From the NCBI RefSeq assembly GCF_000732535.1, contig NZ_APNK01000036.1:1-37377 (forward strand): 37,377 nt of DNA. The letters are read 5' to 3'. The position numbers were made by a program, and so were the translations under genes. The stretch is from Salinisphaera hydrothermalis C41B8 (GTDB taxonomy: Bacteria > Pseudomonadota > Gammaproteobacteria > Nevskiales > Salinisphaeraceae). Shown here piece after piece: positions 27-15,176 of this stretch (position 1 is the stretch's first letter; each line of letters starts with the position of its first letter). The notes below the pieces were generated by a model. The model had not been told where the DNA came from, made no database searches, and saw nothing but the letters and a program-made list of their open reading frames with translations.

Positions 27-2534
27 TCAAGTCTCCATACACCAGACTTGCATATAGCTCGGCGCCGCTTCGTCGACCGCGTTGCGCAGAAAAGCCAGCG
101 CCGCGCCCTGCGACATGCCGGACACGCCGGAAATGGTCGCCGAATTAAGCTGCTGGAAACGATTGAGCGATTGCGGCACCACCTCCGACTTGAGGCTGGC
201 CACGGTTGCCGCCGGTATCACGCTGCCGTCCGGCACGTGAATATAGTAGTCCAGCACCTGATCGGGGTTCAGCCGATCGGCCTGCAACACCTGCGGAATC
301 ACTTTGTAGGATCGGCCGGCGATCGAGAAGTAATTGACGTAGCCACCGCCGAGTGCCGCCGACAATGCCGCGCCGACGTCTTCCTGGGTCAGGCCGAGCG
401 CGGTGATCAGATCACGGTCGAATACGATCGTGGTTTGTGGCTTGTCTACCTTCAGATCCGAATCGACGTAATAGAACTTGCCGCTGGCCTGGGCCTTGGC
501 CTTGACCGCCTGGGCCACCTCGTAAAGATTCTGGAACGGCTCGGTAGTGGTGATCACCAGCTGGATCGGCAGCCCTGAAGTGCCGGGTAACGGTGGAAAC
601 TGGAAGGCCGCCACGCGCGCGCCGGCGATACCGTTCCATTTCTGCTGCAGTACGGCCTGCAGGACGTGGGCGCTGCGGCTACGCTGATCCCAGGGCTTGA
701 ACAGCACGCCGCCGATGCCCTGATTGATCGTGGGCGTGCCGGTGATCTGGAACATCTGCTCGTATTCGGGCAGGCCACGGGCCGCATCGAACATCTGCCG
801 GGCATAGACTTCCATCTGTTGGGCCGTGGCGTTGGGCGGGCCCACGATCTGGCCGATCACCACGCCCTGGTCCTCTTCCGGTGCCAGTTCGGAGCTTGCC
901 GTTACGCCCAGCGCGATCGTGGCGAGGAACAACAGACCGCCCATCACCACAATCACGATCCAGGTGTGCAACGCGCCGTGCAACGCCCGTTGATACCGCT
1001 CGCGCACCCGTTCGAACTGGCGATCGATGAAGGCCACCAGGCGGCCGCTGTTCGCGTCGGCCCGAAAGAAACGCGAGCACATCATCGGCGATAGGGTCAG
1101 CGCAATCACCGCCGACACGGTCACCGCGCCGGCCAGGGTGAAGGCGAACTCGGTGAACAGCGCGCCGGTGAGACCTTTCTGAAAACCGATCGGGGTATAG
1201 ACAGCGATCAGCACGACGGTCATCGCCAGGATCGGGCCGCCCAGCTCGCGCGCGGCCAGCAGTGCGGCCTGGCGCGGTGTCTTGCCTTCGTCCTTCATGT
1301 GGCGGTCGACGTTCTCGACCACGATGATGGCATCGTCCACGACCAGCCCGATGGCCAGCACCAGCGCCAGCAGCGTGAGCAGATTGATCGAGTAGCCCAG
1401 CGCCAGCATTACGAAGAACGTGCCGATCATCGACAGCGGCATGGCCACCAGCGGAATGATCACCGCGCGCAGGCTGCCGAGGAACAGGAAGATCACCGCC
1501 GTGACGATCAGTAGCGCTTCGACCAGCGTCTTGAGCACTTCGTGGATCGAGGTGTTCACGAAGGCGGTCGCGTCGTACACGATCGCGCCGGTGATGCCGT
1601 TGGGTAACTGACGCTGCAGACCGGGAAAGGCGTCCCGTACCCGTTTGGCAACGTCCAGAATATTGGCGTCCGGGGCGACCTTGATGCCGATGAACACCGA
1701 ACTCTTGCCACTGAAGGCCACGTTGACGTCGTAGTTTTCCGAGCCCAGCGTGACGTTGGCCACATCCTGCAACCGCACGATGGCGCCGTCTTTCTGCTTG
1801 ATCGCGAGCTGGCGGAACTCGTCGACCGTATGCAGGTTGCTGTCGGTGGTCAGATCCACCGTCACCGCCTGGCCCTTGGTCGAGCCGACCGCCGCCAGAT
1901 AGTTGTTGGCCGCCAGCGCCGAATACACGTCGCTGGCCGTGACGCCGTGCGCCGCCATCCGCGTCGGATCCAGCCAGGCACGCAGCGCAAACTGGCGCGC
2001 GCCGAGGATCTCGGCGGTCTGGACGCCAGCCACGGAATCCAGCTTGGGCTTGACCACGCGCGCCAGATAGTCGGTGATGTTGTTGGTGGGCAATGCGTCG
2101 CTGTAGAAGCCCATGTACATCGCGTCGATGGTCTCGCCGGTCTGGACCGTCAGCACCGGCTGCTGCGCTTCCGGCGGCAGCTTGTTGAGGACCGAATTGA
2201 CCTGGGTGTTGATCTCGTTGAGCGCCCGGTTGGCGTCGTAGTTCAACCGCAGGGTGGCGGTAATGGTGGACACGCCCGATACGCTGCTCGACGACAGATA
2301 GTCGATGCCCTGGGCCTGGGCGATCGCCTGCTCCAAGGGCTGGGTCACGAAGCCGGCCATGGTTTCGGCATCGGCGCCGTAATAGGCGGTCGTGACCGTG
2401 ACCGTGGCGTTTTCGGTTTCCGGGTACTGGCGCACGGTCAGGCTGGTGACCGCGCGCAAGCCCAGCACGAGAATCAGCGTGCTGATCACGATCGCCAGCA
2501 CCGGCCGGTTGACGAACAGATCGGTGAACTTCAT
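27..2534 (-). CDS. RND (AcrB/MexW-type) multidrug efflux permease, C-terminally truncated
   Basis: Inner-membrane proton-driven drug exporter of the HAE1 RND family, which works with a periplasmic adaptor and an outer-membrane channel. The N-terminus (MKFTDLFVNRPVLA) fits the family start. TM1 is at about residues 10-28 and TM2-TM6 at about 335-490, with the TM4 proton-relay pair D400-D401 in LAIGLVVDDAIIVVENV. The porter loops follow. The family is normally 1020-1050 residues. This ORF stops at 835, after the second periplasmic domain and just before TM8, with a non-homologous tail (QVWCMET). TM8-TM12 and the TM10 lysine that pairs with the aspartates (K940 in AcrB) are therefore missing, so the product is unlikely to pump. 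The adaptor gene lies upstream in the same operon. The break could be a real insertion or rearrangement, or a chimeric contig end. Confidence 0.88.
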   Translation of the reverse strand: MKFTDLFVNRPVLAIVISTLILVLGLRAVTSLTVRQYPETENATVTVTTAYYGADAETMAGFVTQPLEQAIAQAQGIDYLSSSSVSGVSTITATLRLNYDANRALNEINTQVNSVLNKLPPEAQQPVLTVQTGETIDAMYMGFYSDALPTNNITDYLARVVKPKLDSVAGVQTAEILGARQFALRAWLDPTRMAAHGVTASDVYSALAANNYLAAVGSTKGQAVTVDLTTDSNLHTVDEFRQLAIKQKDGAIVRLQDVANVTLGSENYDVNVAFSGKSSVFIGIKVAPDANILDVAKRVRDAFPGLQRQLPNGITGAIVYDATAFVNTSIHEVLKTLVEALLIVTAVIFLFLGSLRAVIIPLVAMPLSMIGTFFVMLALGYSINLLTLLALVLAIGLVVDDAIIVVENVDRHMKDEGKTPRQAALLAARELGGPILAMTVVLIAVYTPIGFQKGLTGALFTEFAFTLAGAVTVSAVIALTLSPMMCSRFFRADANSGRLVAFIDRQFERVRERYQRALHGALHTWIVIVVMGGLLFLATIALGVTASSELAPEEDQGVVIGQIVGPPNATAQQMEVYARQMFDAARGLPEYEQMFQITGTPTINQGIGGVLFKPWDQRSRSAHVLQAVLQQKWNGIAGARVAAFQFPPLPGTSGLPIQLVITTTEPFQNLYEVAQAVKAKAQASGKFYYVDSDLKVDKPQTTIVFDRDLITALGLTQEDVGAALSAALGGGYVNYFSIAGRSYKVIPQVLQADRLNPDQVLDYYIHVPDGSVIPAATVASLKSEVVPQSLNRFQQLNSATISGVSGMSQGAALAFLRNAVDEAAPSYMQVWCMET
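28..50. repeat. Inverted repeat at the break in the RND gene
   Basis: CAAGTCT (28-34) and AGACTTG (44-50) form perfect 7-bp arms around a 9-nt loop. The right arm ends exactly where family-like RND coding sequence begins (51 onward), and the left arm contains the new stop codon. It marks a junction with foreign sequence (1-50). I could not match it to a named insertion-sequence end. Confidence 0.45.
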
Positions 2535-2655
2535 GGCGCGGGCCGCCGGTCGGCCTCATCGCGTACTGGCGCCGGGCAGTCGCAGCACGCCCGCTGGCGC
2601 CCAGCCGGCCACACCACGGCTTCCACCCCGACACGCGCAGGAGCACTCGCCATGG

Positions 2656-3816
2656 CTAGTGTTCCTGCGGCACCGGATGCGCCGCATCCGCCGGCTGCAC
2701 GCTGTTATCCACTCGTATCGACGCACCGTTCTGCAGCTTGATCTGGCCGCTGGTGACCACGGTCGTACCGGCCTCCAGCCCTTTGACGATTGCGACCTGG
2801 TCGCCGCGGGTCGCACCGGTGGTCACCAGCGTCTGCTGCACGGTTGGCGGTAACGCCCGTCCCTGCGCGTCCTTGCCCTTGGACGGCTGCACCACGAACA
2901 CGATGTCGCCATACGGGTTGTAGACGATGGCGGCCTGCGGCAGCGTGAGATAACGCTGCGAGTTGCCGGCGTCGACGCTGATCCGCGCGAACATGCCCGG
3001 CAGAAGCGCGCCGTCGGCGTTGGCCACGGTGGCCTCGACTTGCACGTTGCGCGTGTCGGTATCCACTTTCGGGTTGATGGCCGTGACCCGGCCGTCGAAT
3101 CGCCGGTTCGGGTAAGCATCCACCGCCAGATGCACCGGCGCACCGATCCGCAGTTTGCCCAGCTCGCGCTGTGGAATCGTGAAATCGGCATACAGCGAGT
3201 CGGTCTGCTGCAGCGTCACGATCGTGGTGCCGGCGTTGAGATAGTCGCCGGGGCTGGCCGTGATGATGCCGGCGCGCCCGGCAAACGGCGCCCGCAGCTG
3301 TTTCTTGGCCACGAGCGCCTGCTGTTCGGTCACCGCGGCCTGCCGCGACTTCAGATCGGCGGCCGCGCTGTCGTAATCGGCCCTGCTGATGGCATTGGCG
3401 GCCCGCTGCTGATCGGCGCGTCGGAAATTCAGCTGCGACAGCCGGGCTGCGGCCTCAAGCTGTGCCAACTGGGCGCGATCGTCGGCATCGCGCAGTTGCA
3501 ACAAGAGCTGGCCTTTATCGACGTGCTGTCCGGAGCGGAGATCGACCTGACTGACCAGCCCCGGCACGTCCAGCGCCAGATCGGCACCGCGCACCGCACG
3601 CAGACTACCGACCGAGTCCAGCGCCGGCTGCCAGGCCTGATAGCGGGCTACCGTGGTACTGACCGTGGCCGGCGTCGGCTTGGGCAGACTGGCGATGGTC
3701 CGCATGACCATCAGTACCTTCGCGCCAACGATCAGAGCCACGAGCAACAATACGCCCACGACCATCACGATCATGCGTCGGCCGATCCGAGGCCCATGCG
3801 TGGCTTTATCCGACAT
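2656..3816 (-). CDS. RND efflux periplasmic adaptor (membrane fusion protein)
   Basis: Adaptor that links the RND permease to an outer-membrane channel. The 386-residue product has a short cytoplasmic start, one membrane anchor at about residues 15-38, a biotinyl-lipoyl half-motif around VDLRSGQHVDKGQLLLQL, and an alpha-hairpin rich in Ala/Gln/Arg (about 110-165). The second lipoyl half follows (LRAPFAGRAGII), then beta-barrel and membrane-proximal domains (DAYPNRRFDGRVTAINP onward). Length and order match the MexE/AcrA-like HlyD_D23 group. There is no lipobox, so it is anchored by the helix rather than by lipid. It lies 121 bp upstream of the permease in the same direction. No outer-membrane channel or regulator gene is seen beside it. 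Confidence 0.93.
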   Translation of the reverse strand: MSDKATHGPRIGRRMIVMVVGVLLLVALIVGAKVLMVMRTIASLPKPTPATVSTTVARYQAWQPALDSVGSLRAVRGADLALDVPGLVSQVDLRSGQHVDKGQLLLQLRDADDRAQLAQLEAAARLSQLNFRRADQQRAANAISRADYDSAAADLKSRQAAVTEQQALVAKKQLRAPFAGRAGIITASPGDYLNAGTTIVTLQQTDSLYADFTIPQRELGKLRIGAPVHLAVDAYPNRRFDGRVTAINPKVDTDTRNVQVEATVANADGALLPGMFARISVDAGNSQRYLTLPQAAIVYNPYGDIVFVVQPSKGKDAQGRALPPTVQQTLVTTGATRGDQVAIVKGLEAGTTVVTSGQIKLQNGASIRVDNSVQPADAAHPVPQEH

Positions 3817-4447
3817 AGGCCGGACACCGCGTGGAGCCGATACCCAAACAAGGCGTTTGCATCGGCCAGACCGCGATTAATCGCGCCCCGAAGATGGTGG
3901 TCGGGCAACCCGGACGGCCCCGGCCAACAGCCAGAACCAACGGACGAGCACGCCCATGCGGAACCGATGCGGACGATCGCAACCGAAGCCGGGGGCCGTG
4001 GAAGTGACAAAGCGCCAGAGGACCATCAGATCGCACTCCAGTCGGCGCTTTGCGTGGTCGCCAGCGCAAGGCCGAAAGACAGACGTTGACCCAGCCGAGC
4101 GGACTATCGAATATCGCTCCCTGCTTGAAACTAAAGCATGCCGTCAACGCCCCGGCAATAGCCCGGGCGCGATCATCAATCGGCCCGCTGGATCGCCGCC
4201 ATGCGGTCAGCCGCAGGCGCCCGACGATTCAAATCCTTACGCTTTTCCCCGCCCAGCTCAGCGGCGTCTCGATCCCTCATCGAACGCGGCTGGCCGCGCT
4301 CCGCGGCATCGAAACGGGCAGCGCTACGGCCCACCTGCGCGAATCCGCGCAGAATGGTTGCTCGCGACGGATTGGAAATCCGGACCGTGGTGCGGGTGGC
4401 AGCGGCGCGCCCGCGAGCCCCGGCATCGCGGGCTGCGCGGGACACTC
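3817..4447. other. Intergenic region without convincing genes
   Basis: This 630-bp gap between the adaptor start and the serC stop should carry the efflux operon promoter on the minus strand. All ORFs here are short and of low-complexity, arginine-rich composition in every frame. No clear sigma70 promoter stands out, apart from a weak GATAGT-like hexamer near 4103-4108. No hairpin with a T-run was found after serC. Confidence 0.5.
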
Positions 4448-5578
4448 TTAACCACGCGCCGAGATCGAACGCACCGGGCGACGCTGCGCGCCCCGGAACT
4501 GGTCCATGAAGTCCGCCAGCTGTTCGACCGCGTCCAGCGTGACCGCGTTGTAGATCGACGCCCGTAGGCCGCCGATGGCCCGGTGCCCCTTGAGCCCGGA
4601 CAGCCCGGCGGCCTCGGCGTCCGCCAGAAAACGCTGTTCGAGCGCCTCGTCCGGCAGGTTGAACGCCACGTTCATCAACGAGCGATCGCGCTCCGCGGCA
4701 TGGCCCCGAAAAAAACCGTCGCTTGCGTCCAGCACGCCATAAAGCCGCTCGGCCTTCTGTCGATTGATGGCATCCATGGCGGCCAGGCCGCCAACGTCGT
4801 GCATCAGCCAGCGGGTCACCAGCAACACGACATAGATGGAGAACACCGGCGGCGTATTGAGGATGGAATGGGCGCGCGCCTGGCTGCGATAGTCCAGGAA
4901 ATCCGGTAGGTCCTCAGGCGCGTTTTCCAGCAGGTCGTCGCGCACCACGACCACGGTCACGCCGGCCGGGCCGATGTTTTTCTGGGCGTGGGCATAAATC
5001 AGGCCGAACCGCTGCGCATCGACCGGCCGCGAGAGGAAATCCGACGACATGTCGCAGATACGCAGCACGTTGTCTTGGCCCAGCACCCGGTGGAACTGTA
5101 GCCCTTCCACGGTCTCGTTCGAGACGTAATGCAGATACGGCGCGCTCTCGTTCAACGCGAGCGTGTCATCGCTCGGCAAGTGACTAAAACCGTCGCGCTC
5201 CCCGCTCCAGGCGACCCGAATCGGGCCTTCGCGACGTGCCGCGGGCAGCACCTTGCCGCTCCAGTAGCCGGTATGCAGATAATCGGCCGGCTCGCCGTCC
5301 GGCGGCAGCAAACTCATCGGCACCATGCTGAACTGCTGGGTCGCGCCCCCCTGCAGGAACAGGACGTGATAATCGCGCCCCACCCCGAGCAGACTTCGGA
5401 TGTTGTCCTCGAGCTCGGCCACCACGGCAGCGAACCAGTCGGAGCGATGACTAATACCGAGTACCGATAGCCCGACCTCCGGCACCTCGACGATAGCTTG
5501 CTGCACTTCGCGCAGCACGTTTTCCGGCAACGCGCCGGGCCCGCCGGAGAAATTCAGTGCATTGCGCGGATTCATCAT
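4448..5578 (-). CDS. serC: Phosphoserine aminotransferase SerC
   Basis: PLP enzyme that converts 3-phosphohydroxypyruvate and glutamate to 3-phosphoserine and 2-oxoglutarate in serine synthesis, and also serves pyridoxine synthesis. The 376-residue protein begins with the family signature NFSGGPGALPENVL. It has the phosphate/PLP loop FLQGGATQQF (about 75-84) and the PLP lysine K200 in AHAQKNIGPAG, and ends with the usual GGLRASIYNAV block. The start overlaps the stop of the upstream TPR/ATP-grasp gene, so the two are probably translationally coupled. The typical serC neighbours (gyrA, pheA) are absent. Confidence 0.97.
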   Translation of the reverse strand: MMNPRNALNFSGGPGALPENVLREVQQAIVEVPEVGLSVLGISHRSDWFAAVVAELEDNIRSLLGVGRDYHVLFLQGGATQQFSMVPMSLLPPDGEPADYLHTGYWSGKVLPAARREGPIRVAWSGERDGFSHLPSDDTLALNESAPYLHYVSNETVEGLQFHRVLGQDNVLRICDMSSDFLSRPVDAQRFGLIYAHAQKNIGPAGVTVVVVRDDLLENAPEDLPDFLDYRSQARAHSILNTPPVFSIYVVLLVTRWLMHDVGGLAAMDAINRQKAERLYGVLDASDGFFRGHAAERDRSLMNVAFNLPDEALEQRFLADAEAAGLSGLKGHRAIGGLRASIYNAVTLDAVEQLADFMDQFRGAQRRPVRSISARG

Positions 5579-6819
5579 GCCGATTCACTCGCTATGGCCG
5601 CCTGGTCTTCCTGTACGCGCTGTTCCAGAAGTTCGCGGAACGCCGTTTGCACTTTGGCCATATGCTCTTGTTTGTGCGGGAACAGATCGGCCGAATCCAT
5701 GGCATGCACGACCATGGCATTGCCGATCTCGAAGACCAGCAATTCGCCGTCGGCCGTCTGGGCGCAATCGATGCAGACATAATCGAGCCCGGCACGCTCG
5801 TCGATGGCCTTGAGCGCGGTGTGATGCTGATCCGCGAACGTATCGAACGAGGCCATCCAGGCCGCCTCGCCGGCACGCTTGTCGGCGTCTTCGTACATGC
5901 CGGCGTTGAGGTAGTGGATCATCCAGTCGCTGGAAATCCCCATATGGCTGGCAAACGGTTCGCCATCGACCAGCACGACGCGATACTTGCGATACAGCCC
6001 GTCGGCATCGTGATAATCGATGAACGGGGAAATCAGGAAGTCCGAGTGCTCGCTGTCGTCGAGATAAGCGGCCAGCGCCTCGCGATCGGCCAGGCGGGCG
6101 AGCCCATGCCCGCCGTGGGAATCGCGCGGGCGCAGAATGACCGGAAACTCGATGCCCGGGTCGATCGCGGCAAGGTCGGTTTCGCCGGCCGCTATGGTGG
6201 CCAGCGTATCCGCCGTTACGGGCCGGGTCGGCGGCATGTTCAGCCCCCGCACGCCCTGGAGCAGCTGGCTGGCGCGCTCGCGTTCGGTATTGAGAATGGC
6301 CTCGGGCGTATTGAGCACGGGCCGCGGCCAATCCGCGACCACGGGCTGCATGGCTTCGAGACTCGCCCGGTTGGCATCGGAATCGCTCATCGCCACGATC
6401 GCCAGATCGTGTTCCGGCAACGGCGTTTCTTCCGAGGCGTCGGTCGGCATGACGAAGTAGTACTCGAGATCGACATCGCTATCCTCGAGCAGGCAATCCA
6501 GCGGCATATTGGCGGCGAGATCGCCCGGCGCCGTCAGCAACAGCACGCGCAGCGCGGCCGGCTGGCGCGCCGCGGGCCACCGATAGTGGCGCTGCATCGC
6601 CAGGGCCTGGGCCTGAATGGTCAGGCCGAGGTCGCGCTGGCCGAGACACAGCATCAGCGTGGCCAGGTTCATCCACATCACTGCGTTGTCCGGCTCGGCC
6701 TGGGCCCGTTCGATCCAGGGCTCGGCAAGCGACTGCAGGTCCTCGCCTTGAATACTGCGGCGCAAGAAAGGCGCCAGGCCCAGAAACTGGGTGGAAACCG
6801 TGTCGGACAGCGAAGACAT
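5575..6819 (-). CDS. TPR-like / ATP-grasp domain protein of unknown substrate
   Basis: The 414-residue protein has a helical TPR-like N-terminus (about residues 15-80, with the pattern EPWIERAQAEPDNAVMWMNL). A Rossmann-like linker follows, then a C-terminal ATP-grasp fold: FPVILRPRDSHGGHGLA for the nucleotide-binding strand and Gly-rich loop, KYRVVLVDGEPFASHM, and LLVFEIGNAMVVHAMD for the metal-binding end. ATP-grasp enzymes usually join a carboxylate to an amine or thiol through an acyl-phosphate. The acceptor here cannot be told from sequence. The start at MSSLSDTV is chosen because a GAGG motif precedes it by 11 nt; the reading frame stays open up to 7101, but that part looks non-coding. 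The stop overlaps the serC start, which suggests co-expression. Confidence 0.82.
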   Translation of the reverse strand: MSSLSDTVSTQFLGLAPFLRRSIQGEDLQSLAEPWIERAQAEPDNAVMWMNLATLMLCLGQRDLGLTIQAQALAMQRHYRWPAARQPAALRVLLLTAPGDLAANMPLDCLLEDSDVDLEYYFVMPTDASEETPLPEHDLAIVAMSDSDANRASLEAMQPVVADWPRPVLNTPEAILNTERERASQLLQGVRGLNMPPTRPVTADTLATIAAGETDLAAIDPGIEFPVILRPRDSHGGHGLARLADREALAAYLDDSEHSDFLISPFIDYHDADGLYRKYRVVLVDGEPFASHMGISSDWMIHYLNAGMYEDADKRAGEAAWMASFDTFADQHHTALKAIDERAGLDYVCIDCAQTADGELLVFEIGNAMVVHAMDSADLFPHKQEHMAKVQTAFRELLEQRVQEDQAAIASESA

Positions 6820-7202
6820 CGAGCAGCGAACCTCGGCGGAGTCGGGAAATCGAAAGCCCGACACGACACCGGAACGGGCGCCACACGAGCCGCGGGGACG
6901 CGGCATCGCGGCACCGTGTCCTTGCTGATTCGTCATGATACGGTCGCGCCGGCCGGGCGAAGCGCGGAATAGGCTGCATAAATGCCGTCTCCTGACGGCA
7001 TGAGCGCGGGGAGCCACGACACATGACTGAAAACTGGCGGACGGCACGGAAACCCTGACCGCTCGCAACGAGCCCGGCGCCGCCAGCGTTGCGTCGGCCA
7101 CCGCGGCCGGCGAGTCGGGCGCTCTGGCGCATTCCTGGCGCCTACGCAGTCAGAACGCCTTGCCCCGTCGGCACGCGGGTGTATAAAGCCGCGGCGGTAC
7201 TT
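6820..7202. other. Intergenic region with one hairpin
   Basis: This 383-bp gap separates the ligD cluster from the ATP-grasp/serC pair. Apart from the stem-loop at 6982-7001, I see no gene. The region should contain the promoter for the ATP-grasp/serC operon, but no strong hexamer pair was identified. Confidence 0.45.
6982..7001 (-). terminator. Stem-loop downstream of the ligD operon
   Basis: ATGCCGTC and GACGGCAT form a perfect 8-bp stem with a TCCT loop. On the minus strand it is followed by only a short TTTA, so it is a weak intrinsic terminator candidate. It lies about 200 nt after the last ligD gene. It could equally be a structured leader element for the downstream ATP-grasp/serC operon. 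Confidence 0.35.
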
Positions 7203-8096
7203 CTACGCCCGGGCCTTCAGGCGCTCCAGCGCCCGACTTGCGCTCTGGCCGCGGCGAGCGATGTCCGCCCACGGGCAATCGCGCTGAGCCAGGCGCCGGA
7301 AGATGTTGCCGACGTGGTAACGGCGCGGGCCGATATCCCGGTCCGAGAGCTCGTCCCAATCCAGCGGCGTGGCGATCGGCGCCCCGGGTTTCGGCCGCAC
7401 CGAATAGGGCGCGACCGCGGTCTGGTTCACGGCATTGCGACGCGTATCGAGATACAGCCGGCCACTTCGCTTGTTCTTGGCGTGGGCGGTGGTGAATTCA
7501 TCCGGATGCGCATCGGCAACGCGTTCGGCGATCGCCTGGGCAAATTCGCGCACGGTATCGAAATCGGCACTGCGATCGAGCGGCACCGTCACGTGCAGGC
7601 CCGAGGAGCCGGACGTCATCACGAACGAGGTGAGATCAACCGCCTCCAGCGCGTCGCGTACCGCCCGCGCCGCGGCGACCACCGGCGCGAAGTCGTCGAC
7701 GTCGCCGCCGTGATCGGGCGGATCGAGATCGAAAATCAAACGATCCGGATGCTCGGGCCGATCGTAGCGGCTGAGCGTGACATGAAAAGCGATCGCCCCC
7801 TGGCCGACCAGATAAACCAGCGCGTCCGCCGAGTTGACGAGCGGCTGCACCAGTTCGCCGTCTTCCTTGGCGACGGTGACCCGGTCCAGCCAGGCCGGGT
7901 AATGGTCCTCCACGGCTTTCTGGATGAAATGGACGCCGTCGATACCGTCCGGATAGCGGTTGAGCGTCACCGGACGATCTTTGGCATGCGGCAACATCAT
8001 CGGGGCGATTCGGCGATAGTAATCCGCCAGATCGCCCTTGGTGAGCCCGCTGTCGGGGAAAAAGACCTTGTCGATGTTGTCGAGTTCTACCGTCAC
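7203..8096 (-). CDS. ligD: Stand-alone LigD polymerase (archaeo-eukaryotic primase) domain protein
   Basis: Polymerase/primase part of the NHEJ enzyme LigD, which fills or extends broken DNA ends with a preference for ribonucleotides. The 297-residue product covers the whole POL domain. It begins VELDNIDKVFFPDSGLTKGD and has the metal-binding Asp pair D123/D125 in IFDLDPP, the SGSSGLHVTVP motif (162-172) and the late block LYLDTRRNAVNQTAVAPYS. The chosen start is the GTG at 8094-8096, which overlaps the ligase stop as GTGA. An AGGTGG motif lies 3-4 nt upstream. The longer in-frame extension to 8189 runs through ligase coding sequence and is rejected. It is third in an operon with the ligase and phosphoesterase genes, whereas LigD normally carries all three as one polypeptide. 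Confidence 0.93.
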   Translation of the reverse strand: MTVELDNIDKVFFPDSGLTKGDLADYYRRIAPMMLPHAKDRPVTLNRYPDGIDGVHFIQKAVEDHYPAWLDRVTVAKEDGELVQPLVNSADALVYLVGQGAIAFHVTLSRYDRPEHPDRLIFDLDPPDHGGDVDDFAPVVAAARAVRDALEAVDLTSFVMTSGSSGLHVTVPLDRSADFDTVREFAQAIAERVADAHPDEFTTAHAKNKRSGRLYLDTRRNAVNQTAVAPYSVRPKPGAPIATPLDWDELSDRDIGPRRYHVGNIFRRLAQRDCPWADIARRGQSASRALERLKARA

Positions 8097-9103
8097 GCCC
8101 CACCTGCTTCCCGGACCACCTCGCGTGGATCCTTGTCGTCGCGCTCTCCCAGATAGGCGGGATGACGCAGCTTGCCGTCCGCGGTCCATTCCGTGAACTC
8201 GACCTCGGCCACCCGCTCGGGCGTTACCCAGTGGACGCCGGCCTCGTTCGGCGGATCGACGAATGGCGAGGTCGAGCGTTCGCTGGCCGCGAGCTCACGG
8301 CGCAGCCGACGCAGTTCAGCCTCGGAAAAACCGGTGCCGACCCGGCCGGCATAGCGCAACTCGTCGTCCTCGTAATAGCCGAGCAACAACGCGCCCAGCC
8401 CGACGCGCTCACCCTCCGGTTCGGTATAGCCACCGATCACCAGCTCCTGGCCGGCCTGGCACTTGAGCTTGAGCCAGCGCCGGGAACGGCCGCAGCGGTA
8501 ACAACTGTTGGCCTGTTTGGCGATGATGCCTTCCCAGCCCTTACGCCGTGCCTCGGCGAGCAGCGCCTCGCCGTCGGCGTTGCGATGCGCGGTGAAATGC
8601 AGCCGACTGGAGTATTCGAGCACGTCGCGGACAATCGCCTTGCGCTGACGCAGCGGCACCGGCCGGATGTCGTAGCCCTCGATCCAGGGCGAGTCGAAAA
8701 CATAAAAATGGATCGGGATGCCGGAGGCGCGCGCCTCCTCGGGGTCCGAAATGCCCGCGCGCTGCTGTAGCCGCGCGAAGCTGGTCACATCGCCATCAAA
8801 GGCCACAACCTCGCCGTCGAGCACGAAACGACCGCAGGGCTGGGCGGCGAACAGCTCGACCAGTTCGGGAAAATGATCGTTGCGCAGCTTGCCGTTGCGG
8901 GTATAAAGCTCGACGCTTTCGCCATTACGAAAAATCAGCAGTCGGATCCCGTCGAGCTTGCGTTCGAAGATCCAGTCGTCGTCCGAGAACGGCGTGTCGT
9001 AGAGCGTCGCCAGCATCGGCTCGAACGTTCGCGGCATGGCGACCTTTCGGGCCTTGGCCCAGTCTTCGCCGCTGATGCGGTCCTCGATACATGCCCTGGT
9101 CAT
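8093..9103 (-). CDS. ligD: Stand-alone LigD ATP-dependent DNA ligase
   Basis: Seals breaks by the adenylated-lysine mechanism. The 336-residue product has the nucleotidyltransferase motif I lysine K49 in FERKLDGIR, then the LDGEVVAFD motif, EGIIAKQ (motif IV) and RRWLKLK (motif V). An OB-fold follows with GGYTEPEGERVGLGALLLG. This is the central LIG module of LigD with neither the phosphoesterase nor the polymerase attached. The ATG at 9101-9103 overlaps the phosphoesterase stop as ATGA. It has a perfect AGGAGG 6 nt upstream (9110-9115), which fixes the start and argues that this is a genuine separate gene. Its own stop overlaps the polymerase GTG. Confidence 0.95.
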   Translation of the reverse strand: MTRACIEDRISGEDWAKARKVAMPRTFEPMLATLYDTPFSDDDWIFERKLDGIRLLIFRNGESVELYTRNGKLRNDHFPELVELFAAQPCGRFVLDGEVVAFDGDVTSFARLQQRAGISDPEEARASGIPIHFYVFDSPWIEGYDIRPVPLRQRKAIVRDVLEYSSRLHFTAHRNADGEALLAEARRKGWEGIIAKQANSCYRCGRSRRWLKLKCQAGQELVIGGYTEPEGERVGLGALLLGYYEDDELRYAGRVGTGFSEAELRRLRRELAASERSTSPFVDPPNEAGVHWVTPERVAEVEFTEWTADGKLRHPAYLGERDDKDPREVVREAGGA

Positions 9104-9714
9104 GACGAGCCTCCTGCCCGTTCGGCGATCTGCTCGGTGGTGAGGCCGCTGAGTACCGACGTATCCTCGGTCGAGACCGGGTTGCGGCGCGCATCGGCGG
9201 CCTCGTCGTCGGTCTTCACCAGCAGCCACTGGCGCTTGTTGCCTTCAGTACGAAAATGCGTAAGCGCGTAGCCACCGAATATCTTCTGGCCGTGCAGGTT
9301 AACGATGAGATGGCCATCAGCCCAGCACTCGGCCAGCGATTTTTCGACCCGGCCCTCGGCATCGAGCTTGGCATTGTCGTAGGGGCCGATATCCCAGACC
9401 ATGACCGTACCGCCCCCGTATTCGCCTTCGGGGATCACGCCCTCGAAATCGGCATAGTCCAACGGGTGGTCCTCGGTCTCGATCGCCAGACGTTTGTCTC
9501 GTGGGTCGGTCGAGGGGCCCTTCGGCACCGCCCAGGACTTGAGCACGCCATCGATCTCCAGCCGGAAATCGTAATGCAGCGTCGACGCCGAATGCTTCTG
9601 TACAACGAATATCGGCGGCTTGTCGCCAGACCGCGTCGCGCCATCGCCGGAAGGCTCGGGCGTTACATCGGCACGTCGTTTGTCACGATAGGCCTTGAGC
9701 GGATCCTCAGCCAT
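9100..9714 (-). CDS. Stand-alone LigD 3'-phosphoesterase domain protein
   Basis: End-trimming module of LigD, a metal-dependent 3'-phosphatase/ribonuclease. The 204-residue product has the diagnostic block VVQKHSASTLHYDFRLEIDG with H41, H47, D49 and R51, then H83 and Y87 (EDHPLDYADFEG). These line up with the catalytic residues described for Pseudomonas aeruginosa LigD (H42, H48, D50, R52, H84, Y88). A GGAG motif precedes the ATG by 6 nt. It is the first gene of the three-gene operon, so the order PE, LIG, POL repeats the domain order of the fused enzyme. No ku gene is present in the window. Confidence 0.94.
   Translation of the reverse strand: MAEDPLKAYRDKRRADVTPEPSGDGATRSGDKPPIFVVQKHSASTLHYDFRLEIDGVLKSWAVPKGPSTDPRDKRLAIETEDHPLDYADFEGVIPEGEYGGGTVMVWDIGPYDNAKLDAEGRVEKSLAECWADGHLIVNLHGQKIFGGYALTHFRTEGNKRQWLLVKTDDEAADARRNPVSTEDTSVLSGLTTEQIAERAGGSS
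9110..9115 (-). promoter_or_regulatory. Shine-Dalgarno site of the separate ligase gene
   Basis: A perfect AGGAGG lies 6 nt before the ATG at 9103, inside the end of the phosphoesterase gene. It shows that the ligase is initiated independently and is not simply a frameshifted continuation of the upstream reading frame. Confidence 0.8.
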
Positions 9715-9772: not shown

Positions 9773-9852
9773 CCGCACTTACCCCTAACCGTACGAAGCG
9801 CCTCGCCAAACCCTTAAACTGACTCGAATATTCACAAAACGGGAGATTGGTC

Positions 9853-10296
9853 GTGTTGCACGAACCTTATATACAGGCCGCCCTGAAAGAAGCCCGGCGC
9901 GGGCGCGACGAAGGCGGCGTGCCGATCGGCTGCGTCCTAGTCCGCAACGGCGAAATCGTCGGCGCCGGGCACAACCGAAGGGTGCAGAAATCCAGCGCGA
10001 TTCTGCACGGCGAGATGGACGCGCTCGAAGCCACCGGCCGCAAGCCCGGCCTCTGGCACAAGGACGTCACCCTCTACACCACCCTCTCGCCCTGCGCCAT
10101 GTGCTCGGGGGCGATCCTGCTCTACGGCATCCCGCGGGTCGTGATCGGCGAAAACGCCTCGTTCATGGGCGAAGAAGCCCTGCTACGCGAACGCGGCGTC
10201 GAACTCACCGTGCTCGACGACGCCGACTGCAAGCAACTCATGGCCGATTTCATGCAGGCGTCGCCGGAGCTCTGGAACGAGGATATCGGGGTATAG
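9853..10296 (+). CDS. Cytosine deaminase, yeast FCY1-type zinc deaminase
   Basis: Zinc-dependent hydrolytic deaminase; cytosine to uracil is the likely reaction. The 147-residue protein has the zinc motif HGE (H52, E54) and PCAMC (C81, C84). It also shares features specific to fungal cytosine deaminase: GHNRR (N41, equivalent to substrate-contacting N51), TLYTTLSPC, GAILLYGIPRVVIGEN and the C-terminal WNEDIG (D144, equivalent to D155). Other CMP/dCMP or tRNA-adenosine deaminases lack this C-terminus. The start is the GTG at 9853, because GGGAG at 9841-9845 is 7 nt upstream; the TTG at 9847 is too close. Bacterial cytosine deaminases are more often the unrelated CodA amidohydrolase. Uracil produced could be used by the Upp encoded at 18880-19512. 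Confidence 0.88.
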   Translation: MLHEPYIQAALKEARRGRDEGGVPIGCVLVRNGEIVGAGHNRRVQKSSAILHGEMDALEATGRKPGLWHKDVTLYTTLSPCAMCSGAILLYGIPRVVIGENASFMGEEALLRERGVELTVLDDADCKQLMADFMQASPELWNEDIGV

Positions 10297-10383: not shown

Positions 10384-10725
10384 TCATCGAGTGCGCCAAA
10401 TCGGGGCTTGCTTGAGCTGCTCATCGACAACTAGTCGCATCTTCGGCAGTAGATGGCGCGTCGCCGGCCAGACAGCGTGTACTGGTACTTCGTGTGCGGA
10501 TTGTGCTTCAAGCACGGGAACCAGGTCGCCGTTGTCGATCGATTCCCGGGCCAGCGAGCTCGGCACCTGACATAGGCCCCGGTCATTGAGAGCCGCTCGC
10601 ATGATGGCATCGCCGTCGCTTAGCTCGAAGGTCGGCCTCGGATCGATGCGTACCGATTCGCCGGCAGCATTCTCGACGGTCCAGGCGAGTGTTTGGCCAC
10701 GACGGTAATGACGCTTCCATCTGAC
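10384..10725 (-). pseudogene. Remnant of a LysR-type transcriptional regulator (effector-binding domain only)
   Basis: About 110 residues match the C-terminal half of a LysR substrate-binding domain: FELSDGDAIMRAALNDRGLC, the PSSLARESIDNGDLVPVL segment, then AVWPATRHLLPKMRLVVDEQ. The helix-turn-helix and first half of the effector domain are absent. Upstream sequence (toward 10812) is not LysR-like and gives way to the divergent 70-residue gene. No start codon suits a functional protein, so I read it as decay after an insertion or deletion that also brought in the neighbouring orphans. Confidence 0.7.
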
Positions 10726-10824
10726 CGACGACTGATTCCACCTCAACCCACGCGCTACGGGGCTCGATTCCCCGTTACACGCCGGGGGAGCTCTGCTATG
10801 CTTATCAGACAAGAGGTTTTACCT

Positions 10825-13008: not shown

Positions 13009-15129
13009 CTATTGCCACAGGGCCGCCGCGGCCGCGCCCAGATCGAGCGTGGCCTCGCCGCCGGCTTGTCCGGCCGCCCGGCCCGCGTCATGTGCCGGCG
13101 CATCGACCACCGATTCGAAACAGGCCATGACCGCCGGTGTGAGAAACCGGCTGTTCGCGCCGTAGACATGGGCATCGCCGTAGGCCGCCTGCTGGGTGAC
13201 GTAATAGCGCAGCGGCGAGATCAGCGACAATTCGTTTTTCGCCCGCGTCATCGCGACATAGAGCAGGCGCCGTTCTTCTTCCAGGCCGGCTTCGGTCTTG
13301 GTGGAGAACTCGTTCGGGAACGTGCCGTCGGCCACATGCAGCACGTGCACGCTGTCCCATTCCTGGCCCTTGGCGCTGTGCACGGTCGACAGGATCAGAT
13401 AATCCTCGTCGGCCAGCGCGTCGTCGTTGTGATCGCCAGTGGCCTGGGGCGGGTCGAGCGTGAGTTCGGTGAGAAACGCCGGCGCATCGCCATAGCGCGC
13501 GCCGATGCGGGCCAGATCGTCGATATCGCCGGCGCGGGCGGTGTTGGGCGGCTCGAAGCGGGTATCGAGCTGGGCCTTGTACCAGGCGGCCGCCGGGGCC
13601 AGCGCGGCCGGCCAGGCATTGTCCGCGGCCAGGGCCGCGACCGTCTCGATCATCGCCTGCCACGCGGCGCGATCGGCACGCGCGGGCCGGAAATCGGCCA
13701 GCGCCTCGATGCGATCGCCCGCGGCCTCCAGCGCTTCAAAGGCCTGGCGCGCGGTGCCGGGACCGACGCCGGGCACGATCTGCATGCTGCGCCAGGCGGC
13801 GATTTCGTGGCGCGGATTGTCGGCCCAGCGCAACAGCCCGAGGAAGTCCTTGACGTGGGCCGCTTCCAGGAACTTGAGGCCGCCGTACTTCTTGAACGGC
13901 ACGTTGCGCCGGATCAGCTCGATTTCCAGATCATTGGCGTGGTGGCCATTGCGAAACAACACGGCCTGGCGTTTCAGATCGATGCCGGTCTCGCGCCGGG
14001 CCAGCACGGCATCGACCACCCAGCGCGCTTCGGCGGTGGTATCCATAACGGTGACATGGCGCGGCTTCACGCCAACGCCGCGCGTGGCGGTGAGCTGCTT
14101 GGCATAGGCCCGCGTGGCTTCACCCATGAGCGTGTTGGCCGCATCCAGAATCGCCTGGGTCGAGCGGTAATTGGCTTCGAGTGTGACCACCTGCGTGCCG
14201 CAGTAGGTCTTCGGGAAATCGAGGATATTGTCGACCTCGGCGGCGCGGAACCCGTAGATCGCCTGGGCATCGTCGCCGACCACCGTCAGCCCGCGGCCCG
14301 TCGGTTTCATGGCCTGCAGAATGGCAGCCTGCAGGCCGTTGGTGTCCTGGTATTCGTCGACCAGCACATGATCGAAGCGCGCGCCGATTTCGTCGGCGAG
14401 CGCGCCGTTTTGCATCACCAGATGCCAGTACAGCAGCAGATCGTCGTAATCTAGTGTGGCGCGGGCCTGCTTGCGCGCGGTGTAGTCGGCGAACAGGCGC
14501 TTGAGATCGTCGTGGTGCTCGGCGCACCAGGGAAACCAGCCGTCCAGCACCTCGACCAGCGGCGCCTGCCGGTTTACCGCAGCGGAATAGATGGCCAGAC
14601 AGGTGTCCTTGCGCGGGAAGCGCTTGCCGCCGTCGCGCGAGCGCGCGGCGAGCCCGGCATCGTGGCGGGCCACATCCATCAGATCGGCCGCATCGCCCCG
14701 ATCCAGAATCGAGAAGGCCTCGTCCAGCCCGAGGCGCGGCGCGTACTCGCGCAGCAGCCGGGCGCCGATGGCATGAAACGTACCCGCCCAGGGCAGCCGT
14801 ACGCCCTGGCCTTTCCGACCACGCGTGGCGAGCGCGGATTCGCAGATCGCATGCGCGCGGCGCGTCATTTCCTCGGCGGCGCGACGCGAGAACGTCAGCA
14901 ACAGAATACGGCGCGGGTCCACGCCTGAGAGCACCAGATGCGCGGCCCGATGCGACAGCGTCTGCGTCTTGCCGCTGCCCGCACCGGCCAGAATCAACAG
15001 CGGATCGGCATCCCAGCCGCAGGGCGCGGCCATACCGAAACCGGCGGCCTCGCGCTGGGCCGGATTCAGCCCGGCGAGATGATCGTCGGCCGCAGCCGGT
15101 ACCTGGAGATCGTCAACGGTCGCACTCAT
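13009..15129 (-). CDS. UvrD/Rep-family SF1A ATP-dependent DNA helicase
   Basis: 3'-5' DNA helicase of the UvrD/PcrA/Rep group. In order it has the Q motif LNPAQREAAG, Walker A LAGAGSGKT (about 47-55), LLTFSRRAAEEM (Ia), DEYQDTNGLQ (II), VVGDDAQAIYGFRAA (III), LEANYRSTQAIL (IV), QEWDSVHVLHVADGTFPNEF (V) and EEERRLLYVAMTRAKNELSL (VI). At 706 residues it lacks the long C-terminal tail of UvrD. The start at MSATVDD is preferred over upstream codons, which would run into the perfect palindrome at 15146-15176. It is likely a repair or recombination helicase, but substrate and partner are unknown. Confidence 0.93.
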   Translation of the reverse strand: MSATVDDLQVPAAADDHLAGLNPAQREAAGFGMAAPCGWDADPLLILAGAGSGKTQTLSHRAAHLVLSGVDPRRILLLTFSRRAAEEMTRRAHAICESALATRGRKGQGVRLPWAGTFHAIGARLLREYAPRLGLDEAFSILDRGDAADLMDVARHDAGLAARSRDGGKRFPRKDTCLAIYSAAVNRQAPLVEVLDGWFPWCAEHHDDLKRLFADYTARKQARATLDYDDLLLYWHLVMQNGALADEIGARFDHVLVDEYQDTNGLQAAILQAMKPTGRGLTVVGDDAQAIYGFRAAEVDNILDFPKTYCGTQVVTLEANYRSTQAILDAANTLMGEATRAYAKQLTATRGVGVKPRHVTVMDTTAEARWVVDAVLARRETGIDLKRQAVLFRNGHHANDLEIELIRRNVPFKKYGGLKFLEAAHVKDFLGLLRWADNPRHEIAAWRSMQIVPGVGPGTARQAFEALEAAGDRIEALADFRPARADRAAWQAMIETVAALAADNAWPAALAPAAAWYKAQLDTRFEPPNTARAGDIDDLARIGARYGDAPAFLTELTLDPPQATGDHNDDALADEDYLILSTVHSAKGQEWDSVHVLHVADGTFPNEFSTKTEAGLEEERRLLYVAMTRAKNELSLISPLRYYVTQQAAYGDAHVYGANSRFLTPAVMACFESVVDAPAHDAGRAAGQAGGEATLDLGAAAAALWQ

Positions 15130-15145
15130 GCCGTGACGCTGCCAT

Positions 15146-15176
15146 GCCCGGTGGGTCAGATCTTGACCCACCGGGC
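15146..15176. terminator. Perfect 31-nt palindrome between hydrolase and helicase genes
   Basis: GCCCGGTGGGTCA and TGACCCACCGGGC form perfect 13-bp arms around a GATCT loop. The palindrome begins 5 nt beyond the hydrolase stop and ends 16 nt before the helicase ATG. It would form a very stable RNA hairpin, but no T-run follows in either direction. It may be a factor-assisted terminator, an attenuator hiding the helicase start, or a protein-binding site. Confidence 0.55.

Follow-up and report, generated by a model that had tools for sequence, protein, structure and literature searches.

A Salinisphaera operon of separately encoded LigD-type repair modules in a genome without a detected ku gene

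LigD function is usually interpreted through its partner, Ku. The first-pass annotation of the locus studied here described bacterial LigD as usually one polypeptide and separate NHEJ modules as known from some archaea. Separate modules extend beyond archaea: in the excerpts from which all papers are cited here, separate modules within one operon occur in many organisms (PMC4797286, PMC5663958). The Methanocella paludicola AP-NHEJ operon (5DMU, 5DMP), for example, encodes phosphoesterase, ligase, and Prim-Pol separately, as does the operon described below (PMC4797286). Sharda et al. (2020; PMC7719229) use “LigD only” and “nonconventional NHEJ” classes, recognize separately encoded domains, and report LigD without Ku in 619 of about 6,000 bacterial genomes; in the excerpts of that paper, the absence of Ku is not linked to a lineage of separate modules. 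Our literature search, which covered titles, the opening parts of abstracts, and similar excerpts, found no link between a distinct separate lineage in Pseudomonadota and the absence of Ku, and none of the papers searched deals with both Salinisphaera and LigD. The split itself is of a known kind, and the interest of this locus is the combination of a separate lineage with the absence of Ku in Pseudomonadota.

The operon and the lineage of its genes

The window, by which we mean the whole 37,377-nucleotide stretch of contig NZ_APNK01000036.1 that was analyzed, has Salinisphaera as its host genus (closest named relatives, S. halophila and S. orenii). At 7203..9714, on the minus strand, three genes lie adjacent to each other and are predicted to form an operon. 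The first (9714-9100) encodes a 3'-phosphoesterase of 204 amino acids (PE; LigD_N/LigD_PE_dom), the second (9103-8093) a LigD-type ATP-dependent DNA ligase of 336 amino acids with adenylation and OB domains (Lig), and the third (8096-7203), which starts at GTG, a LigD-type primase-polymerase (AEP) of 297 amino acids (Pol). Pfam scores were 148 bits for PE against LigD_N, 104 and 108 bits for Lig against DNA_ligase_A_M and A_C, and 297 bits for Pol against LigD_Prim-Pol; NCBIfam and Pfam name the products LigD phosphoesterase, LigD-type ATP ligase, and LigD Prim-Pol.

The first-pass annotation had described three separately encoded, overlapping genes that keep their catalytic residues, and the description is accurate. 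All three ORFs are intact, each is shifted in frame relative to its predecessor, the PE stop and Lig start overlap in ATGA at 9103-9100, and the Lig stop and Pol start overlap in GTGA at 8096-8093, a configuration that would allow coupled translation. PE retains all six catalytic residues (H41, H47, D49, R51, H83, and Y87, the equivalents of Methanocella H40, H46, D48, R50, H82, and Y86), the ligase retains KxDG, with the catalytic lysine in KLDG, and Pol retains the DxD and third Asp that make up the three polymerase aspartates. ATGA likewise joins PE and Lig in the nearest relative (G012) and in G004; between Lig and Pol, GTGA recurs in G012 and G009, and ATGA is found in G004, G007, G011, and G014. 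The AGGAGG noted ahead of the ligase is indeed present (9115-9110, minus strand, 6 nt upstream of the ATG), but it is missing from G012, whose PE-Lig overlap is likewise ATGA, and thus is not what has been conserved at this junction.

Trees of the polymerase and the ligase separate these genes from fused LigD. A polymerase tree of 69 rows, in which the bootstrap had not fully settled and the window's side held 28 rows, was rerun with 68 rows after removal of one very long branch; a 100/99 branch then set off 27 rows on the window's side, with zero fused LigD among them. These rows come from Salinisphaera, Wenzhouxiangella, other gammaproteobacteria, a Bacillota MAG, actinobacterial operons, lone polymerases, and the Methanocella Pol. 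The branch was kept (31 rows, SH-aLRT 99) in a quick tree with 14 added polymerases. In the ligase tree (56 rows), 19 rows without a fused LigD make up the window's side behind a 100/98 branch, and the long-branch warning for that tree concerned rows other than this branch. The best PDB match for PE is Methanocella 5dmp (170.9 bits) and that for Pol is Methanocella 5dmu (280.4 bits), with 168.4 bits for M. tuberculosis and 143.5 bits for 2fao, which we take to be the P. aeruginosa LigD polymerase domain. As these trees place it, the operon belongs to an old lineage, of the kind known from Methanocella, in which NHEJ-type modules are encoded by separate genes, and it does not derive from a recent break-up of LigD.

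The LigD side of the tree also holds separate genes, namely, Prim-PolC-like genes, polymerases next to ku in Streptomyces, and those of G046, G190, G296, and G358, which indicates that separate genes arose more than once. By their position in the tree, G046, G190, and G296 are an independent split on the LigD side. These three (loci L082-L084) are members of one genus with small genomes (1.4-1.6 Mb) that contain Ku and a LigD-type Pol as a separate gene.

A Pfam search of 20 flanking ORFs at seven loci outside the genus found no shared repair gene, and none of these neighbors points to a pathway. Within the genus, a small cytidine/dCMP-type deaminase gene, divergent from the operon and located at 9847-10296 on the plus strand of the window, adjoins in 13 of 13 Salinisphaera loci, including those where PE or Pol has been lost. 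A UvrD/Rep-like helicase of 720 amino acids (13009-15171, minus strand) falls well short of the cut-offs for UvrD, PcrA, and Rep; such a gene is found no more than a few kb from the operon in eight Salinisphaera genomes (window, L020, L034-L037, L039, L042, and L043, with 13 loci checked, some of them truncated by contig ends) and may represent a functional partner or plain synteny. Also in the window are a 142-amino-acid ORF (10384-10812, minus strand) that fits only the later part of the LysR substrate-binding domain and is apparently a gene remnant, and, at the contig edge (27-2534, minus strand), an RND-permease-like ORF of 835 amino acids that matches positions 1-826 of a 1017-position profile.

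Polymerase features and proposed working

Several functional residues known from the M. tuberculosis enzyme are conserved in the polymerase of the window: the lysine that contacts the 5'-phosphate (K10; K16 in M. tuberculosis), the arginine for strand displacement (R47; R53), and the loop-2 Lys and Arg (K207 and R210; K217 and R220), which accept the 3' end from another break (residue roles from PMC3898472 and PMC4797286). The apex of loop 1 reads KED instead of HRS, a motif that matters for synapsis in M. tuberculosis (PMC3898472, PMC4797286), the second wedge Phe is replaced by Ile, and three gammaproteobacterial members of the lineage are without the loop-2 Lys. Loop 3, which occupies residues 313-333 of Prim-PolC and is the defining trait of that short-gap subfamily (PMC7442782), is absent from the window's Pol, which extends only 6 residues past aligned Prim-PolC residue 303. 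With the loop-2 residues kept and loop 3 missing, end synthesis of the NHEJ type appears more likely than patch repair of the Prim-PolC kind.

One alternative is that the operon encodes a base-excision repair complex of the LigC/Prim-PolC type, which fills gaps of 1-3 nt with ribonucleotides and then seals them. In mycobacteria, a complex of this kind operates separately from LigD (PMC5663958, PMC7442782), and its activity would be compatible with a missing Ku. We nevertheless consider this reading unlikely. Six of the seven rows in the Prim-PolC-like clade run 40-139 residues past position 303 (13 in L115), and the clade falls on the LigD side of the tree. At five of the seven corresponding loci, the polymerase is encoded on the strand opposite the ligase; at the other two, the polymerase stands alone, and PE was found in none of the seven stretches fetched. 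A Prim-PolC-like function for the Salinisphaera enzyme is disfavored by the missing loop.

The reading that we prefer, and hold to be probable though well short of secure, is that the operon belongs to the old separate-module lineage and that its products are free-standing enzymes for Ku-independent strand-break repair, a function that we infer from sequence. In this model, the three proteins would be translated in coupled fashion and would act in trans, as free enzymes, at DNA ends or gaps. Pol would dock on the 5'-phosphate, bring short stretches of microhomology into pairing, and extend them with (ribo)nucleotides; PE would cut back 3' ends that are damaged or over-extended until they can be ligated, as in Methanocella; and Lig would seal the product using ATP. 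In Salinisphaera, the result could be Ku-free microhomology-mediated end joining or the repair of single-strand breaks or gaps, and the data fit either.

Distribution of Ku

A ku gene elsewhere in the genome, for which the first-pass annotation had advised a search, was not found: the window's genome, 99.92% complete, contains no match to PF02735. With no Ku partner found, we have placed the operon with the separate-module lineage and not classed it as an NHEJ system. Across the 17 genomes of the family that were searched, Ku is present in two (G007 and G011), which are exactly the two that have a fused LigD. Each of them has two ku genes, positioned with the fused ligD on one side and the separate operon on the other.

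The same division was found in larger samples. In a sample of 369 gammaproteobacterial genomes, 39 had a Prim-Pol. When this sample was extended by Wenzhouxiangella limi and the remaining Salinisphaera genomes, Ku was present in 0 of 15 genomes with the separate lineage only versus 28 of 29 with a LigD-type polymerase (exception, G123), with G044, G166, G176, and G178 assigned to the LigD type by open-frame length and not by tree. A second sample, of 398 pseudomonadotal genomes, had Prim-Pol in 97, of which 90 were new and 80 of these were tested for Ku. Fourteen short-frame polymerases were placed, four of them on the window's side (G408, G484, G553, and G640). Ku was present in none of these four separate-lineage-only genomes versus 74 of the 76 others (exceptions, G570 and G685), 66 of which were likewise classed by open-frame length. 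Pooled, the counts are 0 of 19 separate-lineage-only genomes versus 102 of 105 genomes with a LigD-type polymerase, where partial or fragmentary Ku matches in G358 and G455 were scored as present; Fisher's test gives a p of 1.3e-19, which is a guide only, as it assumes independent genomes and these are not independent. The 19 genomes represent nine or ten genera (nine genus codes plus Wenzhouxiangella, which possibly shares one of the codes). Dropped from the counts were G013 (broken pol), G088 (divergent partial Pol on a very long branch), G324 (partial Pol at a contig end), and G266 (below the cut-off), all of them Ku-negative.

These counts cover Pseudomonadota, with members from other phyla left out. 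Elsewhere, Ku was not found in the Bacillota MAG (G386) and was found in the Actinobacteria reached and in an Acidobacteria MAG. In Glycomyces algeriensis (G389, locus L123), PE, Lig, and Pol of the separate lineage occupy 4824-2433 on the minus strand, and a divergent ku match starts at about 5043 on the plus strand, about 220 bases from the operon. The region as a whole (2433-5576) is a bacterial counterpart of the Methanocella arrangement. Both placed polymerases of this genome belong to the separate lineage, and a third, partial match is unplaced. Ku and LigD-side polymerases are both present in Janibacter, Mycobacterium, and two Streptomyces genomes with placed members, but the generalization that Ku-positive bacteria with the separate lineage always have a LigD-type polymerase is contradicted by Glycomyces. 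Four Pseudomonadota (G007, G011, G229, and G197) combine Ku with both the separate lineage and a polymerase of the LigD type, although in G197 PE is interrupted and the placement of the second polymerase, set apart by a 93/85 branch, is less sure. Because the same lineage occurs with Ku in Methanocella, whose Ku label in our tree derives from papers and not from a search, and in Glycomyces, the absence of Ku is, by these counts, a pattern of the sampled Pseudomonadota and not of the lineage.

The company that these modules keep outside Pseudomonadota lends some plausibility to classical Ku-dependent NHEJ with an unrecognized Ku or a substitute end-binder: modules of the same lineage are Ku-dependent in Methanocella (PMC4797286, PMC7719229) and adjoin ku in Glycomyces, and a Ku diverged beyond detection by PF02735, or another end-binding protein, could exist. 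The profile, however, had zero matches in a nearly complete genome and in all 19 separate-only Pseudomonadota, yet detected Ku in nearly every LigD-type genome, and we regard this explanation, too, as improbable.

Extending the preferred reading of a Ku-independent repair operon to the phylum as a whole calls for more caution. We offer tentatively, as a proposition less probable than not, that Pseudomonadota harbor a never-fused or very anciently split PE/Lig/Pol lineage whose three free enzymes would act in trans in a Ku-independent pathway of strand-break repair or end joining, one that exists next to Ku-LigD NHEJ but has a separate evolutionary history, the same lineage being Ku-linked elsewhere (Glycomyces, Methanocella).

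Origin of the split and comparison with known systems

Among the 17 family genomes, 14 of which are Salinisphaera, 11 have a Prim-Pol match, and all 11 are Salinisphaera. Nine have the complete PE-Lig-Pol order: the window's genome (G000), G004, G005, G006, G007, G009 (85% complete), G011, G012, and G014. G013 has the three-gene order with a broken pol; at this locus (L043, about 6029-7004), pol is interrupted and matched in pieces only, and PE and Lig are open frames. Other relatives have lost or relocated single modules: PE and Pol occur with no ligase between them in G016, G262, G174, G284, G377, G408, and G553, and in G015 and G010 (the latter 81% complete), the ligase is kept, PE is lost or degraded, and Pol has no match. 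Such loss or relocation of single modules suggests that the modules are able to act as independent enzymes, and it weakens the earlier proposal that fixed stoichiometry is the reason for the arrangement.

The first-pass annotation had also argued that the split is natural, and the comparison with related genomes that it called for bears this out. The modules are kept separate in ten further Salinisphaera genomes and in other genera, and every Salinisphaera operon copy examined is in separate ORFs, none as a single continuous ORF, with junctions that vary by species among 4-nt overlaps, 8-nt overlaps, and short gaps. Values of dN/dS against G012 (PE, 0.162; Lig, 0.131; Pol, 0.085) and against three further species (0.155-0.315; overall range across the four relatives, 0.085-0.315) indicate that all three genes are under purifying selection. 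Conservation in the genus together with this selection indicates that the split is real, old within the genus, and selected.

The accompanying claim of a LigD fission is not supported. On that reading, a fused PE-Lig-Pol LigD would have been split in a Salinisphaera ancestor and the split retained through coupled translation. In most of the fused LigDs seen, the domains do follow the same order as these genes, and the three ORFs align one after another along NF004628, a profile of the fused protein (1-196, 233-549, and 582-867 of 870). The trees, however, place the operon in a lineage without any sampled fused member: branches with 100/99 (Pol) and 100/98 (Lig) support lie between it and every sampled fused LigD, those found in Salinisphaera itself (G007 and G011) are across these branches and only about 38-42% identical, and Wenzhouxiangella, other gammaproteobacteria, and Actinobacteria also have separate operons with this gene order and from this lineage. 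We therefore judge a split in the Salinisphaera ancestor to be very improbable. The two branches rule out a recent fission; the trees are unrooted and speak against recent fission only, and a much older event, at the base of the lineage, would be compatible with them. There is next to no likelihood that one continuous gene was broken up by frameshift errors in sequencing or assembly. Interrupted single genes exist elsewhere (pol of G013), but nothing at the operon supports such an error, and the artifact is refuted by a split that is conserved in every Salinisphaera copy examined and in other genera, with start/stop structures that vary by species.

The old separate-module lineage presents three LigD activities kept as free proteins in Ku-negative genomes across nine or ten genera of Pseudomonadota. 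These environmental halophiles can show whether the modules need joining and whether Ku-free repair occurs. The two Salinisphaera genomes that have both systems, with a fused LigD, two ku genes, and a separate PE-Lig-Pol operon within about 11-13 kb (L034 in G007 and L035 in G011), offer a natural side-by-side comparison.

Of the described systems, that of Methanocella provides the closest solved sequences, lies on the same side of the polymerase tree, and has the six PE catalytic residues in common with the operon described here, but NHEJ in Methanocella includes Ku (PMC4797286, PMC7719229), whereas none was found in the window's genome. Fused LigD of the Pseudomonas and Mycobacterium type has the same three catalytic modules, in the PE-Lig-Pol order of PRK05972/NF004628; the operon described here differs in that its modules are three polypeptides from another lineage and in that no Ku was found in its genome. 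The LigC/Prim-PolC complex of Actinobacteria likewise combines a stand-alone LigD-type ligase with a Prim-Pol, and the Salinisphaera operon is distinguished from it by its lack of loop 3, its position in a different clade, and the presence of PE as its first gene.
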